64,000 nucleotides of DNA, taken from Nocardioides sambongensis. Its GTDB lineage: Bacteria; Actinomycetota; Actinomycetes; Propionibacteriales; Nocardioidaceae. Made by a program: the position numbers and the translations under genes. Below, in pieces: positions 10,730 to 49,551 of this stretch. How positions within the stretch are numbered: position 1 is the stretch's first letter; the number at the start of each line of letters is the position of its first letter. The DNA lies in the NCBI RefSeq assembly GCF_006494815.1, contig NZ_CP041091.1:496001-560000 (forward strand). The letters run 5' to 3'. The notes under the pieces were generated by a model that saw nothing but the letters and a program-made list of their open reading frames with translations, ran no database searches and had not been told where the DNA came from.

Positions 10730-10810
10730 CCCGCGTGGCCGCGGGCCCGGCAGGGTGAGGCGTCCGCCACGACGCAGGCGCGGATGAGTCCGGACAGGGT
10801 GGCCGCTGGG

Positions 10811-10822
10811 TACTCTCAGGGC
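10811..10822 (+). promoter_or_regulatory. -10 box of the membrane kinase gene
   Basis: TACTCT (10811-10816) lies 6 nt before GTG 10823. The box sets the preferred start at GTG 10823 rather than ATG 10784. Confidence 0.4.
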
Positions 10823-12691
10823 GTGACCAGCCAGCCGCACGACGGACCGACCCGGGTCGGGGACTACACCCTGCTCACCCGTCTCGGCGAGGGCGGCATG
10901 GGCATCGTGCACCTGGCGCGCGGCGCCGACGGGCGGCGGGTGGCGCTGAAAGTGCTGCGCCCGCACGTCGTCGGCGACGCCGAGGCCCGGGCCCGGCTGG
11001 CGCGGGAGGTCGGCTCGCTGAGCCGCGTCCGCAGCCCGTGGGTCGCCGAGATCCTGGCCGCCGACCCCTGGGGCGAGATGCCCTACGTGGTCACCCGCTA
11101 CGTGCCCGGCCTCTCCCTGCACGACCACGTCCAGGAGGAGGGTCCGGTCGCCGACCGGGACCTGCTCTGGCTCGCCGGCTGCCTGGCCGAGGGCGTCGAG
11201 GCCGTGCACGCCGCTGGCGTCCTGCACCGCGACGTGAAGCCGTCGAACGTGCTGATGGAGGGGCGCACCCCGATCCTGATCGACTTCGGACTCGCCCGCG
11301 TCGCCGAGGATCCGCGTCTCACCCAGACCGGCTGGTTGCTGGGCACCCCCGGCTACCTCGCCCCCGAGATCCTGTACGGCGACGAGGCGACTCCCGCCGC
11401 CGACGTGCACGCCTGGGCGGCGACCGTCGCCTACGCGGCGACCGGGCAGGCGCCGTACGGGCGTGGTCCGGCGATGGCGATCATGGACCGTGCGCGCCGC
11501 GGGGAGCACGACCTCTCCGGCATCGACCGACCGTTGGCCGACGTGCTGGACGCGGCGCTGTCGCCCGACCCGCTCGAGCGACCCCTCCTCGAGGAGCTCC
11601 TCGCTTGGCTCCGACCGTTGAGCACCCGACCGTCCGACCCGCGGGTGCCGCCACCGGGCGGCGGCGTCCTGGGTGGCGTCGGCGAGCAGGTGGACGACGA
11701 CGACTTCACCCTGCCGCTGGCGTTGGCCGCGCAGGCGGGCGTGGTGGTGCCGCCGGTGCCCCCGGTTCCTGCCGGTGAGGTCGCCACGGCCACCCCGATC
11801 ACGGTGGTCGACCACGTGCGCCCGGGCGCGGTCGCCGCCGCACCGCCCGCGCCCCCGACGACGCCCGTGACGGCGCCGCCGGCCCCGGTCGGGGACGGGA
11901 CCGGCACCGAGCGCCTGGAATCCGAGCGCCCGGAGTCCGAGCGCCCGGAGTCCGAGCGCTGGTCATCCGCGGCGGACGGGCGCGAGGGCGCCCGCACCCA
12001 GGTGCTGGCCGATGGGTCGCGGGAGTGGCCACCGCCCCCGCCCCGGGACGGCGACGACGCGCTGTCCCGGATGGAGGAGCAGTGGGACCGGCAGTGGGAG
12101 GAGCCCGACGGTGCCGCGCGGACCGATGTGCCGGCACTGGAGCGGGTCCGTCGCGGTCTCGCGGTCACCGCGGGCGCGTTCGTCGTCGGCGCCGGGCTCG
12201 CGGCGGCCCCGTGGCTGACGCTGATCGGCGTGGTCGCGATGATCTGGCTGCTGCGCGCCGGCTCCCTGGCCAGCTCCGCGGTCGCCGGCCGACGGCAGGT
12301 CCGCGGCCGCAAGTGGCACGACGGGCTCGCCTGGGTCTTCTCCAGTCCGTGGCACCTGCTGCGGGCGACCACCGGCACGCTGGTGCTGACCGTGTGGAGC
12401 GCCGGCCTGGCCCTCGCCGCAGGACTGCTCTGCTACGCCTTCGCCCTCGACCTGCCGACGTCCCTGTTGGTCAGCGGCACCACGCTCGGTGTCGCGCTGT
12501 GGTCCGGTCCGGGCTCGGACCGCTTCCGTCGTCCGGTCGGTCGGGCGCTCTATCCGGCGACCGGGAGGCCGGTGGCGTGGCTGGTGCTGTGCGCCGCCCT
12601 GGTCGTGACCGGCTCGCTGCTGGCGATGGTCGCCGTCGGGCAGGGCACGTGGTGGGCTCCGGCCGACAGCGGCCCCTTCGGCCTGGGCTGA
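10823..12691 (+). CDS. Membrane-anchored Ser/Thr protein kinase
   Basis: A 622-residue Hanks-type kinase with the catalytic domain first. Motifs: GEGGMG loop (residues about 22-27), ALKVL lysine (about 43), HRDVKPSN (about 135), DFG (about 154) and GTPGYLAPE (about 175). A Pro-rich linker follows, containing three copies of a 15-bp repeat encoding Glu-Arg-Pro-Glu-Ser-like units (11909-11953). The C-terminal third holds about five hydrophobic segments (from about residue 440), so it is membrane-embedded rather than single-pass, and no PASTA sensor domain is present. It sits between ilvE and cimA without overlap. The signal sensed is unknown. Confidence 0.88.
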   Translation: MTSQPHDGPTRVGDYTLLTRLGEGGMGIVHLARGADGRRVALKVLRPHVVGDAEARARLAREVGSLSRVRSPWVAEILAADPWGEMPYVVTRYVPGLSLHDHVQEEGPVADRDLLWLAGCLAEGVEAVHAAGVLHRDVKPSNVLMEGRTPILIDFGLARVAEDPRLTQTGWLLGTPGYLAPEILYGDEATPAADVHAWAATVAYAATGQAPYGRGPAMAIMDRARRGEHDLSGIDRPLADVLDAALSPDPLERPLLEELLAWLRPLSTRPSDPRVPPPGGGVLGGVGEQVDDDDFTLPLALAAQAGVVVPPVPPVPAGEVATATPITVVDHVRPGAVAAAPPAPPTTPVTAPPAPVGDGTGTERLESERPESERPESERWSSAADGREGARTQVLADGSREWPPPPPRDGDDALSRMEEQWDRQWEEPDGAARTDVPALERVRRGLAVTAGAFVVGAGLAAAPWLTLIGVVAMIWLLRAGSLASSAVAGRRQVRGRKWHDGLAWVFSSPWHLLRATTGTLVLTVWSAGLALAAGLLCYAFALDLPTSLLVSGTTLGVALWSGPGSDRFRRPVGRALYPATGRPVAWLVLCAALVVTGSLLAMVAVGQGTWWAPADSGPFGLG

Positions 12692-12777
12692 CGCCGGAGC
12701 GCCTGCGTAGGCCGCACCTGAGCACGCGGGACCTGACCACGATGTGACGGGCTGCACCCCGTCCCCGGCGGACGTGG

Positions 12778-12789
12778 CACACTGGCGGC
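12778..12789 (+). promoter_or_regulatory. -10 box of the cimA leader
   Basis: CACACT (12778-12783) lies 6 nt before GTG 12790. A weak box by sequence, but at the same spacing as the other leaderless starts in this window. Confidence 0.3.
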
Positions 12790-12819
12790 GTGTCGCAGCA
12801 CCGCACCATCATTACCTAG
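12790..12819 (+). CDS. Leader peptide MSQHRTIIT with tandem Ile codons
   Basis: A 9-codon frame (GTG 12790, TAG 12817-12819) carrying adjacent isoleucine codons ATC ATT at 12808-12813, three codons before the stop. It precedes cimA, whose product opens the citramalate route to isoleucine. Its stop codon abuts a strong hairpin at 12819-12855, and a terminator-like stem with T-rich tail follows at 12856-12889. This is the layout of a classical attenuator in which a ribosome starved for Ile-tRNA stalls in the leader. The frame is short and could be chance; comparison with relatives would settle it. Confidence 0.55.
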   Translation: MSQHRTIIT

Positions 12820-12898
12820 CGCGTCGCCGCCGGGACCACCCCGGGAGCGACGCGCAGACCTCTCGTGCCCCGGGGGGTCTTTCTCATTTCCGGGGCAC
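12819..12898 (+). promoter_or_regulatory. Candidate cimA attenuator hairpins
   Basis: Three structures can form. Stem A: GCGCGTCGC (12819-12827) with GCGACGCGC (12847-12855), with an inner CCGGG/CCCGG. Terminator: AGACCTCTC (12856-12864) with GGGGGGTCT (12872-12880), two G-T pairs, followed by TTCTCATTT. Alternative stem B: GTGCCCCGG (12865-12873) with CCGGGGCAC (12890-12898), which uses the terminator's 3' arm and so excludes it. Mutually exclusive terminator and rival stem after an Ile-Ile leader suggest transcription attenuation. Pairings were read by eye. Confidence 0.5.
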
Positions 12899-12948
12899 GG
12901 AGCGGACCCCGGCACACCCACCACCAGCACCAGCGAGAGACGAACCCG

Positions 12949-14556
12949 ATGACGCAGCAGCCCCTGGACCTCCACGGCGCCTTCCACGTCTACGACACCA
13001 CCCTGCGCGACGGAGCGCAGCAGGAGGGGTTGAACCTCTCGGTGGCCGACAAGCTGGCGATCGCCCGCCAGCTCGACGGGCTCGGCGTGGGGTACATCGA
13101 AGGCGGGTGGCCGGGGTCGAACCCGAAGGACACCGAGTTCTTCCGGCGTGCGGCCACCGAGCTCGACCTCCGCCACGCGCGCCTGGCCGCCTTCGGCTCG
13201 ACCCGGCGCGCCGGCAGCACCGCCGCCGACGACCCGATGGTCGCGGCGCTGCGGGAGAGCGGCGCCCCGGTGGTCACCCTGGTCGCGAAGTCGCACGCGG
13301 GGCACGTGGAGAAGGCGCTGCGGACCACGCTGGAGGAGAACCTCGCGATGGTCCGGGACACGGTCGGCCACCTGCGCGCCGAGGGTCAGCAGGTCTTCCT
13401 CGACGCCGAGCACTTCTTCGACGGCTACCGCCTGGACCGCAGCTATGCGCTCGAGGTGCTGCGGACCGCCGCCGAGGCGGGCGCCGACGTGGTCGCGCTC
13501 TGCGACACCAACGGCGGGATGCTGCCCCCCTGGGTCTCGGACGTGGTCGACGACGTCATCTCCACCACCGGGGTCCGGGTCGGCATCCACTGCCACAACG
13601 ACACCGGGTGCGCCGTGGCGAACACGCTGGCCGCGGTCGACGCCGGCGCCAGCCACGTCCAGGGCTGCATCAACGGCTACGGCGAGCGCACCGGCAACGC
13701 CGACCTGGTCAACGTGGTGGCCAACCTCCAGCTCAAGCTCGACCGTCAGGTGCTGCCGCCCGGCCTGCTCCCCGAAGCCACCCGGATCGCCCACGCGGTC
13801 GCCGAGGTCACCAACTTCCCGCCCGCCTCACGCCAGCCGTACGTCGGCTCCTCGGCCTTCGCGCACAAGGCCGGACTGCACGCCAGCGCGATCAAGGTCG
13901 ACCCCGACCTCTACCAGCACATGGACCCGGCCGGCGTCGGCAACGACATGCGACTGCTGGTCTCCGAGATGGCCGGCCGCGCCTCCATCGAGCTCAAGGG
14001 CAAGGAGCTCGGCTTCGACCTCTCCGGCGACCCGGAGCTGGTCGCCCGGGTCACCGCACGGGTGAAGGAGATGGAGGCCCGCGGCTACACCTTCGAGGCC
14101 GCGGACGCCTCGTTCGAGCTGCTGCTGGTCGAGGAGGTCGAGGGCGCCCGTCCGACGTACTTCGACGTGGAGAGCTGGCGGGTGATCACCGAGACGCTGA
14201 CCCATGCCGCGCCGGGGGAGGAGGCGGTCTCCGAGGCGACCGTCAAGCTCGCCGCGGCCGACGTCCGCTACGTGGTGACCGGTGAGGGGAACGGACCGGT
14301 CAACGCCCTGGACCAGGCGTTGCGCTCGGCGATCGGGCAGGCCTATCCGGAGATCGCGAAGTTCGAGCTGATCGACTTCAAGGTCCGGATCCTCGATCAG
14401 GGTCACGGCACCGACGCGATCACCCGGGTGCTGATCGAGACCAGCGACGGCGAGGCCTCCTGGGTGACGGTCGGGGTCGGCGCGAACGTGATCGAGGCGT
14501 CCTGGGAGGCGCTCGCCGACAGCCTCACTTACGGGCTGCGCCGCCACCACGTCTGA
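12949..14556 (+). CDS. cimA: (R)-citramalate synthase
   Basis: A 535-residue enzyme condensing pyruvate and acetyl-CoA to citramalate, the first step of threonine-independent isoleucine synthesis. The HMG-CoA lyase-like TIM barrel begins YDTTLRDGAQQEGLNLS (catalytic Arg-Asp); GIHCHNDTGCAVAN carries the metal-binding histidines; GCINGYGERTGNADL follows. After a linker comes a C-terminal regulatory domain of LeuA type (about residues 400-520). GGWPGSNPKD and the overall length separate it from 2-isopropylmalate synthase. Downstream enzymes LeuCD and LeuB are also in the window. Confidence 0.92.
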   Translation: MTQQPLDLHGAFHVYDTTLRDGAQQEGLNLSVADKLAIARQLDGLGVGYIEGGWPGSNPKDTEFFRRAATELDLRHARLAAFGSTRRAGSTAADDPMVAALRESGAPVVTLVAKSHAGHVEKALRTTLEENLAMVRDTVGHLRAEGQQVFLDAEHFFDGYRLDRSYALEVLRTAAEAGADVVALCDTNGGMLPPWVSDVVDDVISTTGVRVGIHCHNDTGCAVANTLAAVDAGASHVQGCINGYGERTGNADLVNVVANLQLKLDRQVLPPGLLPEATRIAHAVAEVTNFPPASRQPYVGSSAFAHKAGLHASAIKVDPDLYQHMDPAGVGNDMRLLVSEMAGRASIELKGKELGFDLSGDPELVARVTARVKEMEARGYTFEAADASFELLLVEEVEGARPTYFDVESWRVITETLTHAAPGEEAVSEATVKLAAADVRYVVTGEGNGPVNALDQALRSAIGQAYPEIAKFELIDFKVRILDQGHGTDAITRVLIETSDGEASWVTVGVGANVIEASWEALADSLTYGLRRHHV

Positions 14557-48803: not shown

Positions 48804-48878
48804 TGGTCTATGGTGTAATTGGCAGCACGACTGGTTCTGGTCCAGTTAGTCTAGGTTCGAGTCCTAGTAGACCAGCCA
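48804..48878 (+). tRNA. tRNA-Gln (anticodon CTG)
   Basis: TGGTCTA pairs with TAGACCA in the acceptor stem; G discriminator and encoded CCA follow (mature 48804-48875, CCA 48876-48878). The anticodon stem ACTGG/CCAGT encloses TTCTGGT, giving CTG, which reads CAG. The T arm contains GGTTCGAGTCC. Confidence 0.95.
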
Positions 48879-49478: not shown

Positions 49479-49551
49479 GCCCCCGTTGTGTAGCGGCCTA
49501 GCACGCCGCCCTCTCAAGGCGGTAGCGCCGGTTCGAATCCGGTCGGGGGTA
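49479..49551 (+). tRNA. tRNA-Glu (anticodon CTC)
   Basis: The acceptor stem GCCCCCG pairs with CGGGGGT (one G-T pair), A discriminator. The anticodon stem CCGCC/GGCGG encloses CTCTCAA, giving CTC, which reads GAG. The T arm has GGTTCGAATCC. No CCA is encoded. Confidence 0.95.

Follow-up and report, generated by a model that had tools for sequence, protein, structure and literature searches.

In Actinobacteria, several genes of branched-chain amino acid (BCAA) metabolism are controlled at the RNA level. Seliverstov et al. (2005) described leaders of trp, trpS, cys, ilvB and leuS, the LEU element of leuA, which is a pseudoknot without a terminator, and ileS T-boxes, which are tRNA-binding leaders; cimA and ilvA are not among the leaders described in the excerpted text (PMC1262725). 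In Streptomyces lividans, ilvBHC is preceded by the leader IlvL (MRTRILVLGKRVG; leader peptides are given up to the stop codon), which is reported to be leaderless and has the codons I-L-V-L, hairpins and a U tract (PMC8079986). The Streptomyces leuS leader LeuL2 (MRAVRLLLSEPR) is likewise leaderless, has Leu codons, a hairpin and a U tract, and controls an aminoacyl-tRNA synthetase by sensing Leu (PMC8079986); leuS attenuators were also described in PMC1262725. Table 4 of the S. lividans report contains eight leaders, none of them at cimA (PMC8079986). For ilvBNC of Corynebacterium glutamicum, a 'fast' attenuator was described whose short, near-leaderless leader has CUU and GUA as control codons; the bases of its antiterminator and terminator hairpins are adjacent, and the two hairpins share a GCC trinucleotide (PMC11857589). 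The ilvB-II motif, described for ilvB in the genus Corynebacterium, comprises a leader ORF with BCAA codons, two stems and a terminator (PMC10272879). For ilvB1 of Mycobacterium tuberculosis, with the codons LVVI, mutually exclusive structures were proposed, in which a ribosome that has reached the stop codon hides the antiterminator, while one stalled at the BCAA codons leaves it free (PMC13236596).

The element analyzed here, located upstream of the citramalate synthase gene cimA of Nocardioides sambongensis, is a real, widely conserved element of this known kind with the anatomy of an attenuator: a leader frame with Ile codons, a hairpin termed P1 and a terminator hairpin termed T. Like IlvL and LeuL2, it combines a predicted leaderless transcript with BCAA codons, hairpins and a T-rich tail; however, it precedes cimA and carries Ile codons, and its leader ends by TAG at the base of P1, whereas IlvL runs through the P1 arm (PMC8079986). 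It has the short leader and the adjacent hairpins of C. glutamicum ilvBNC, but shares no base between them in 110 of 115 elements of the genus, in contrast to the three-base overlap described there (PMC11857589). Compared by description, it has the parts of the ilvB-II motif, whose antiterminator, in contrast, is drawn with the P1 loop (PMC10272879), and its ribosome masking resembles that proposed for M. tuberculosis ilvB1, which differs in gene, codons and mutually exclusive structures (PMC13236596). With the LEU element and the ileS T-box it would have in common the control of BCAA genes at the RNA level (PMC1262725). No attenuator of cimA or ilvA in Actinobacteria was among the literature matches listed, which covered few subscription journals; cimA and an ilvA-like gene are apparently new attenuator targets.

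An Attenuator-Like Element Upstream of cimA

The window, i.e., the whole stretch of 64,000 nucleotides that was analyzed, comprises positions 496001-560000 of contig C1 of the 4.43 Mb genome (G000); coordinates refer to the window unless stated otherwise. The gene cimA (12949-14556, + strand) encodes a true citramalate synthase, with 634.3 bits for TIGR00977 (cut-off 450), and its product also carries the LeuA allosteric domain (LeuA_dimer). Citramalate synthase leads via 2-oxobutyrate to isoleucine. The genes leuB and ilvE, both above their family cut-offs, are located upstream, and a Ser/Thr kinase-like gene (10784-12691), for which all family matches were below curated cut-offs, lies between ilvE and cimA. 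A gene end GPFGL, similar to that of the kinase-like gene, is also found 5' of cimA in several relatives. The element occupies the interval between the kinase-like gene and cimA, and an intrinsic terminator is, as judged from sequence and covariation, present between its leader and cimA.

At the gathering score, no Rfam 15 family, including T-box, riboswitches and leaders, matched the element. The sole matches across the window were two tRNA genes (48804-48875 and 49479-49551). Searching Rfam with 12700-13000 gave no match even at an E value of 1, and 12 loci with the element gave 0 Rfam matches.

The gene cimA was found in 147 of 147 genomes of the genus searched, and 130 cimA upstream regions of the genus, this window's included, were compared (30 loci and 100 regions). 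The element was present in 115 of them, this one included. The remaining 15 cimA genes lacked it at that place, one of them (L110) being located at a contig end. The last 130 bases before cimA of L099 look like the fusion of promoter and terminator remnants that a deletion of the leader and P1 would leave.

Leader Reading Frame and Control Codons

The first-pass annotation of this DNA had pointed out a nine-codon frame with adjacent Ile codons, and this frame is present in the sequence as VSQHRTIIT at 12790-12819 (+ strand; GTG start, M at start). The control codons ATC ATT (Ile-Ile; codons -3 and -2) occupy 12808-12813 on the + strand, and P1 begins with the G (12819) of the TAG stop. A sequence scan at the locus yielded no sigma-70 consensus site. 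A promoter core TGG-CACACT (12775-12783, + strand), with the -10-like hexamer CACACT (CAnnnT) at 12778-12783, lies 6 nt 5' of the leader start codon and predicts a leaderless transcript, i.e., an mRNA start at or next to the leader GTG.

A search ignoring the frame found the motif TGnCAnnnT in 111 of the 115 genus elements. In all 111, a start codon follows 6-7 nt 3' of the motif, and the frame that it opens runs without interruption through the Ile codons to the stop, even though twelve different start-to-stop distances, ranging from 21 to 69 nt, occur. By chance, a start codon is expected at either of the two positions in 5.6% of cases, and the frame in one third. With 23 codons versus 9 in L089, the leader of L093 is 42 nt longer yet retains both its frame and the Ile-Ile-Ser-stop end, which looks like the result of an in-frame insertion.

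Codon -2 encodes Ile in all 115 genus elements, codon -3 in 103 and codon -4 in 81, and the leader stop is TAG in 114 of the 115. Codon -2 is ATT in 106 of 115, although ATT makes up 5 of the 397 Ile codons counted across 30 cimA genes, and none of 56 when cimA is counted together with the three upstream genes of the window. Judged by this usage, the control position is occupied by a rare codon.

Structure of Hairpins P1 and T

Hairpin P1, the proposed antiterminator, spans 12819-12855 on the + strand (arms 12819-12827 and 12847-12855). The terminator hairpin T (12856-12880, + strand; arms 12856-12865 and 12871-12880) adjoins it without a gap. T has 10 pairs, a loop of 5 and a T-rich tail; in 50 shuffles of the sequence, the mean number of such sites was 0.0. 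The leader RNA folded more stably than 200 of 200 shuffles (z -3.87).

Covariation was assessed in an alignment of 66 sequences, namely 42 from the genus plus 24 cimA leaders taken from contigs of named genomes, kept from 148 after leaving out L177, elements longer than 125 nt and near-identical ones. In this alignment, 91.7% of cells pair, compared with 40-54% in slid controls; the drawn structure is favored over its slid versions, since it was drawn by hand on the same alignment. Changes on both sides were observed for 12 of 20 pairs, i.e., 6 of 10 in P1 and 6 of 10 in T. Double-change cells numbered 112, compared with 23.1 in shuffles, and 0 of 500 shuffles reached any of the measures. The weak pairs are the outermost pair of T, which fails in 38 of 66 sequences, and the two innermost pairs of P1, which fail in 15-16. 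Both the strong stem and the terminator-like stem with T-rich tail noticed in the first-pass annotation are thus conserved with compensatory changes, and close relatives keep the frame and the Ile codons as well, contrary to the lack of conservation that had been named there as a refutation.

In 109 of the 115 genus elements, P1 and T lie 0-2 nt apart; the spacing is -1 or -2 nt in five and 3 nt in one; the arms of T were picked as best stems for this measurement, and full T pairing is there by construction. An adjacency of the C. glutamicum type (gap of -2 to 2 nt) is present in 114 of 115. P1 and T overlap in 5 of the 115 elements by at most 2 nt, and the shared boundary trinucleotide of the C. 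glutamicum type was found in none of the 115. Outside the genus set, 95 of 113 elements have a spacing of -2 to 2 nt and 16 one of 3-9 nt, T being not assigned in 2.

Occurrence of the Element Beyond the Genus

Beyond the genus, leader, P1 and T were found by pattern in 33 of 80 named cimA loci; some of the remaining 47 have little or no upstream DNA. The genera with the pattern include Kribbella, Nonomuraea, Amycolatopsis, Kutzneria, Pseudonocardia, Cellulomonas and Demequina. Outside the genus, the leader often reads on through the P1 arm, e.g., LIISRRAG and IIIAERAG, and in 26 of the 33 loci the start of P1 relative to the Ile codons is unchanged.

A covariance model, R1, was built from cimA elements only. 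It matched 140 of 197 class genomes and 72 of 90 genera, training genomes included, and 42 of 119 genomes of a phylum-wide draw that overlaps partly with the class set.

Control Codons Follow the Downstream Gene

In this genome, R1 gave three hits, which precede cimA, leuS and ilvB. The leuS element (L243; C1 1581869-1581940, - strand) has the leader VTTRTLLS, and its gene scored 906 bits for TIGR00396 (cut-off 548.4). The ilvB element (L244; C1 468203-468283, + strand), about 28 kb upstream of the window, has the leader MRHLLVRTGRAD, and its gene scored 760.8 bits for TIGR00118 (cut-off 538.35). There was no R1 hit at the ilvA of this genome, which is above the TIGR01127 cut-off.

In total, 80 R1 hits were examined, comprising 21 loci, 19 of 20 regions (L253, a duplicate of L225, was dropped) and 40 further regions; they were hand-picked from the strong part of the matches listed, the ilvB hit of this genome being the one weaker hit looked at. 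All 80 lie 5' of a BCAA gene: cimA in 46, ilvB in 19, an ilvA-like gene in 7, leuS in 6 and leuA in 2. The ilvA-like proteins match threonine ammonia-lyase families best, below the curated cut-offs.

The codons before P1 differ with the gene; the following figures are counts of sequences, not of independent events. In cimA leaders, Ile is found at codon -3 in 45 of 46 and at codon -2 in 42 of 46, and the ilvA-like leaders have Ile at codon -2 in 7 of 7. The ilvB leaders have Leu at codon -4 in 16 of 19, Val at codon -3 in 18 and Leu, Val or Ile at codon -2 in 18. Leu-Leu precedes P1 in 6 of 6 leuS and 2 of 2 leuA leaders. Since R1 was trained on Ile codons, the non-Ile codons were found against the bias of the model. 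The rare codons ATT, CTT and GTA recur at the control positions; in the leuS and ilvB genes of this genome, CTT is absent and GTA occurs once. This natural exchange of codons with the genes can be taken as strong comparative evidence that the leaders sense tRNA charging.

R1 also recovered described leaders. In the class genomes L344 and L345, it found before ilvB a leader letter-identical to S. lividans IlvL (MRTRILVLGKRVG), and the leuS leaders found include ends similar to that of LeuL2 (LLLTEPR). The published ilvB and leuS leaders, the cimA leader and the ilvA-like leader are versions of one RNA architecture without an Rfam 15 match.

Of the phylum-wide hits, 40 were fetched, 36 from other classes and 4 from class genomes. 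They precede ilvB (24), cimA (4), leuS (3), leuA (2) and leuB (2), with leuS assigned by the best tblastn match and leuA and leuB by family match of partial proteins; L312, L322, L337, L346 and L349 are without gene assignment. The codons follow the downstream gene in most of these 40 hits. Exceptions are L350, which precedes leuA without matching codons, and L343 (leuS), in which the codons are ambiguous. Outside the class, L327 and L334 are Ile-codon elements (VIIR) before a leuB-type gene, which scored 373 bits for NF002898 on partial proteins (cut-off 393).

An ilvA attenuator substituting for an absent cimA was considered for family f18 and rejected: cimA is present in all 14 genomes of the family. 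Seven of these 14 genomes have one of the ilvA-like elements examined here.

Ribosome Position and the Proposed Switch

The ribosome was modeled by masking the RNA to 12 nt past the first base of the A-site codon and folding the rest. The footprint used for masking is general knowledge. In folding before the 3' arm of T is made, P1 formed with at least 5 bp in 115, 112 and 44 of 115 elements when the ribosome was stalled at codons -4, -3 and -2, respectively, and in 1 of 115 when it was at the stop. With the ribosome at the stop and T complete, T formed with at least 6 bp in 109 of 115.

Of the 113 further elements, 107 have 80% or more of their P1 5' arm covered when the ribosome stands at the stop. 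The elements with less masking are L249, L265, L284 (stop deep inside large loop), L002 (frame mis-set), L225 and L276. Although the position of the stop codon varies, T was counted as masked in none of the 113, being not assigned in 2. Thus, in these computations P1 reads the position of the ribosome and, being present under starvation, would be an antiterminator.

Without a ribosome, P1 and T coexist in the minimum-energy fold in 115 of 115 elements. Therefore, pairing alone gives no exclusive switch, and exclusion of T would need to be steric or kinetic. By analogy, C. glutamicum ilvBNC as described in PMC11857589 can be regarded as the closest precedent for exclusion of this type.

We consider it likely that the element is a ribosome-mediated transcription attenuator tying cimA to isoleucyl-tRNA charging, and cimA is probably switched on only when isoleucine is short. 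The mRNA would start at or beside the GTG of the nine-codon leader. With plentiful isoleucine, a translating ribosome would reach the TAG, and its leading edge would cover the 5' arm of P1; with P1 masked, T would fold and RNA polymerase would stop before cimA. With Ile-tRNA in short supply, the ribosome would be held up at the Ile codons, which are separated from P1 by 5 nt; P1 would then fold, T would be hindered from closing and cimA would be transcribed. P1 is proposed to hinder the closing of T because it ends at the foot of T.

Several observations count against this course. P1 and T coexist in folds without a ribosome, as stated above; when the ribosome is placed on the last Ile codon, P1 forms in no more than the 44 elements given above before the T 3' arm is made; the abutment is not universal, as the 16 of 113 elements with gaps of 3-9 nt show; codon substitutions at S. 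coelicolor ilvB were reported to be without effect (as cited in PMC1262725); and the element is missing at 15 of the 130 cimA genes of the genus.

If this is correct, many Actinomycetota would control the citramalate route into isoleucine specifically by its product. A wider reading is proposed tentatively: a modular attenuator would operate across BCAA genes of Actinomycetota with only the control codons exchanged (Ile for cimA and ilvA-like genes, Leu-Val-Ile mixes for ilvB, Leu for leuS and leuA), and an abutting hairpin that shares no base with T would keep T open. Such abutment, possibly a new way of antitermination, would be an attenuation principle unlike mutually exclusive pairing. The element would also make the S. 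coelicolor ilvB paradox testable, as attention would shift from a classical antiterminator to P1 and the distance between P1 and T.

Alternative Explanations

P1 might instead act mainly as an RNA polymerase pause hairpin that synchronizes ribosome and polymerase, with read-through arising via another effect of the stalled ribosome. P1 is a very stable GC hairpin at a fixed place, it stands 3-9 nt from T in the 16 elements mentioned, and pausing at the first hairpin was proposed in C. glutamicum (PMC11857589). However, pausing accounts neither for the spacing of 0-2 nt between P1 and T in 109 of 115 elements nor for the masking of P1, but not of T, by a ribosome at the stop. As the main function it is judged unlikely, while pausing may be an additional role of P1.

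In a classical three-hairpin attenuator, P1 would be the anti-antiterminator, and a separate antiterminator would pair the T 5' arm with upstream RNA upon stalling. The order of parts is like that of the E. coli trp attenuator, and the pairs of T vary partly via G-U changes. For a ribosome placed at the last Ile codon, upstream pairing of the T 5' arm was slightly in excess (18 of 115 versus 8-14 in swapped controls), but not for one at the stop (12 of 115 versus 9-12), and it occurred in 0 of 115 for stalls at codons -4 and -3; a conserved partner of the T 5' arm was not found. Moreover, stalling does not open all of P1, because the control codons lie 5' of it. A classical antiterminator with the T 5' arm was rejected on these figures, and an attenuator of this design is improbable.

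A nascent-chain arrest peptide or a plain constitutive terminator, neither of which would sense tRNA charging, would fit the S. coelicolor ilvB substitutions. Yet the residues preceding the control codons are free to vary, whereas those codons themselves match the pathway to which the downstream gene belongs, and the rare codons ATT, CTT and GTA are found at the control positions, which makes this explanation very improbable.

The first-pass annotation had pointed, with support from the comparison, to an Ile leader with attenuator-type hairpins before cimA, but had drawn as its switch a rival stem downstream that excludes the terminator (12863-12900, + strand; 12863-12876 with 12887-12900). 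This stem does form 14 bp here, but it is private to this genome and not part of the conserved element, whose ribosome-sensitive part is P1; including this one, 10 of 115 elements have a stem of at least 8 bp there, with differing sequence, near the level of swapped controls (35 of 575). Since its 3' arm is moreover made only after the T tract, competition of this stem with T is the remotest of the explanations considered. In some relatives, a pairing of the T arm CTCTCG with GAGAGA before the cimA start was seen by eye, and some of the 10 long downstream stems are of this type; the clade with CTCCTG in T nevertheless keeps GAGAGA, and the pairing was set aside as improbable.
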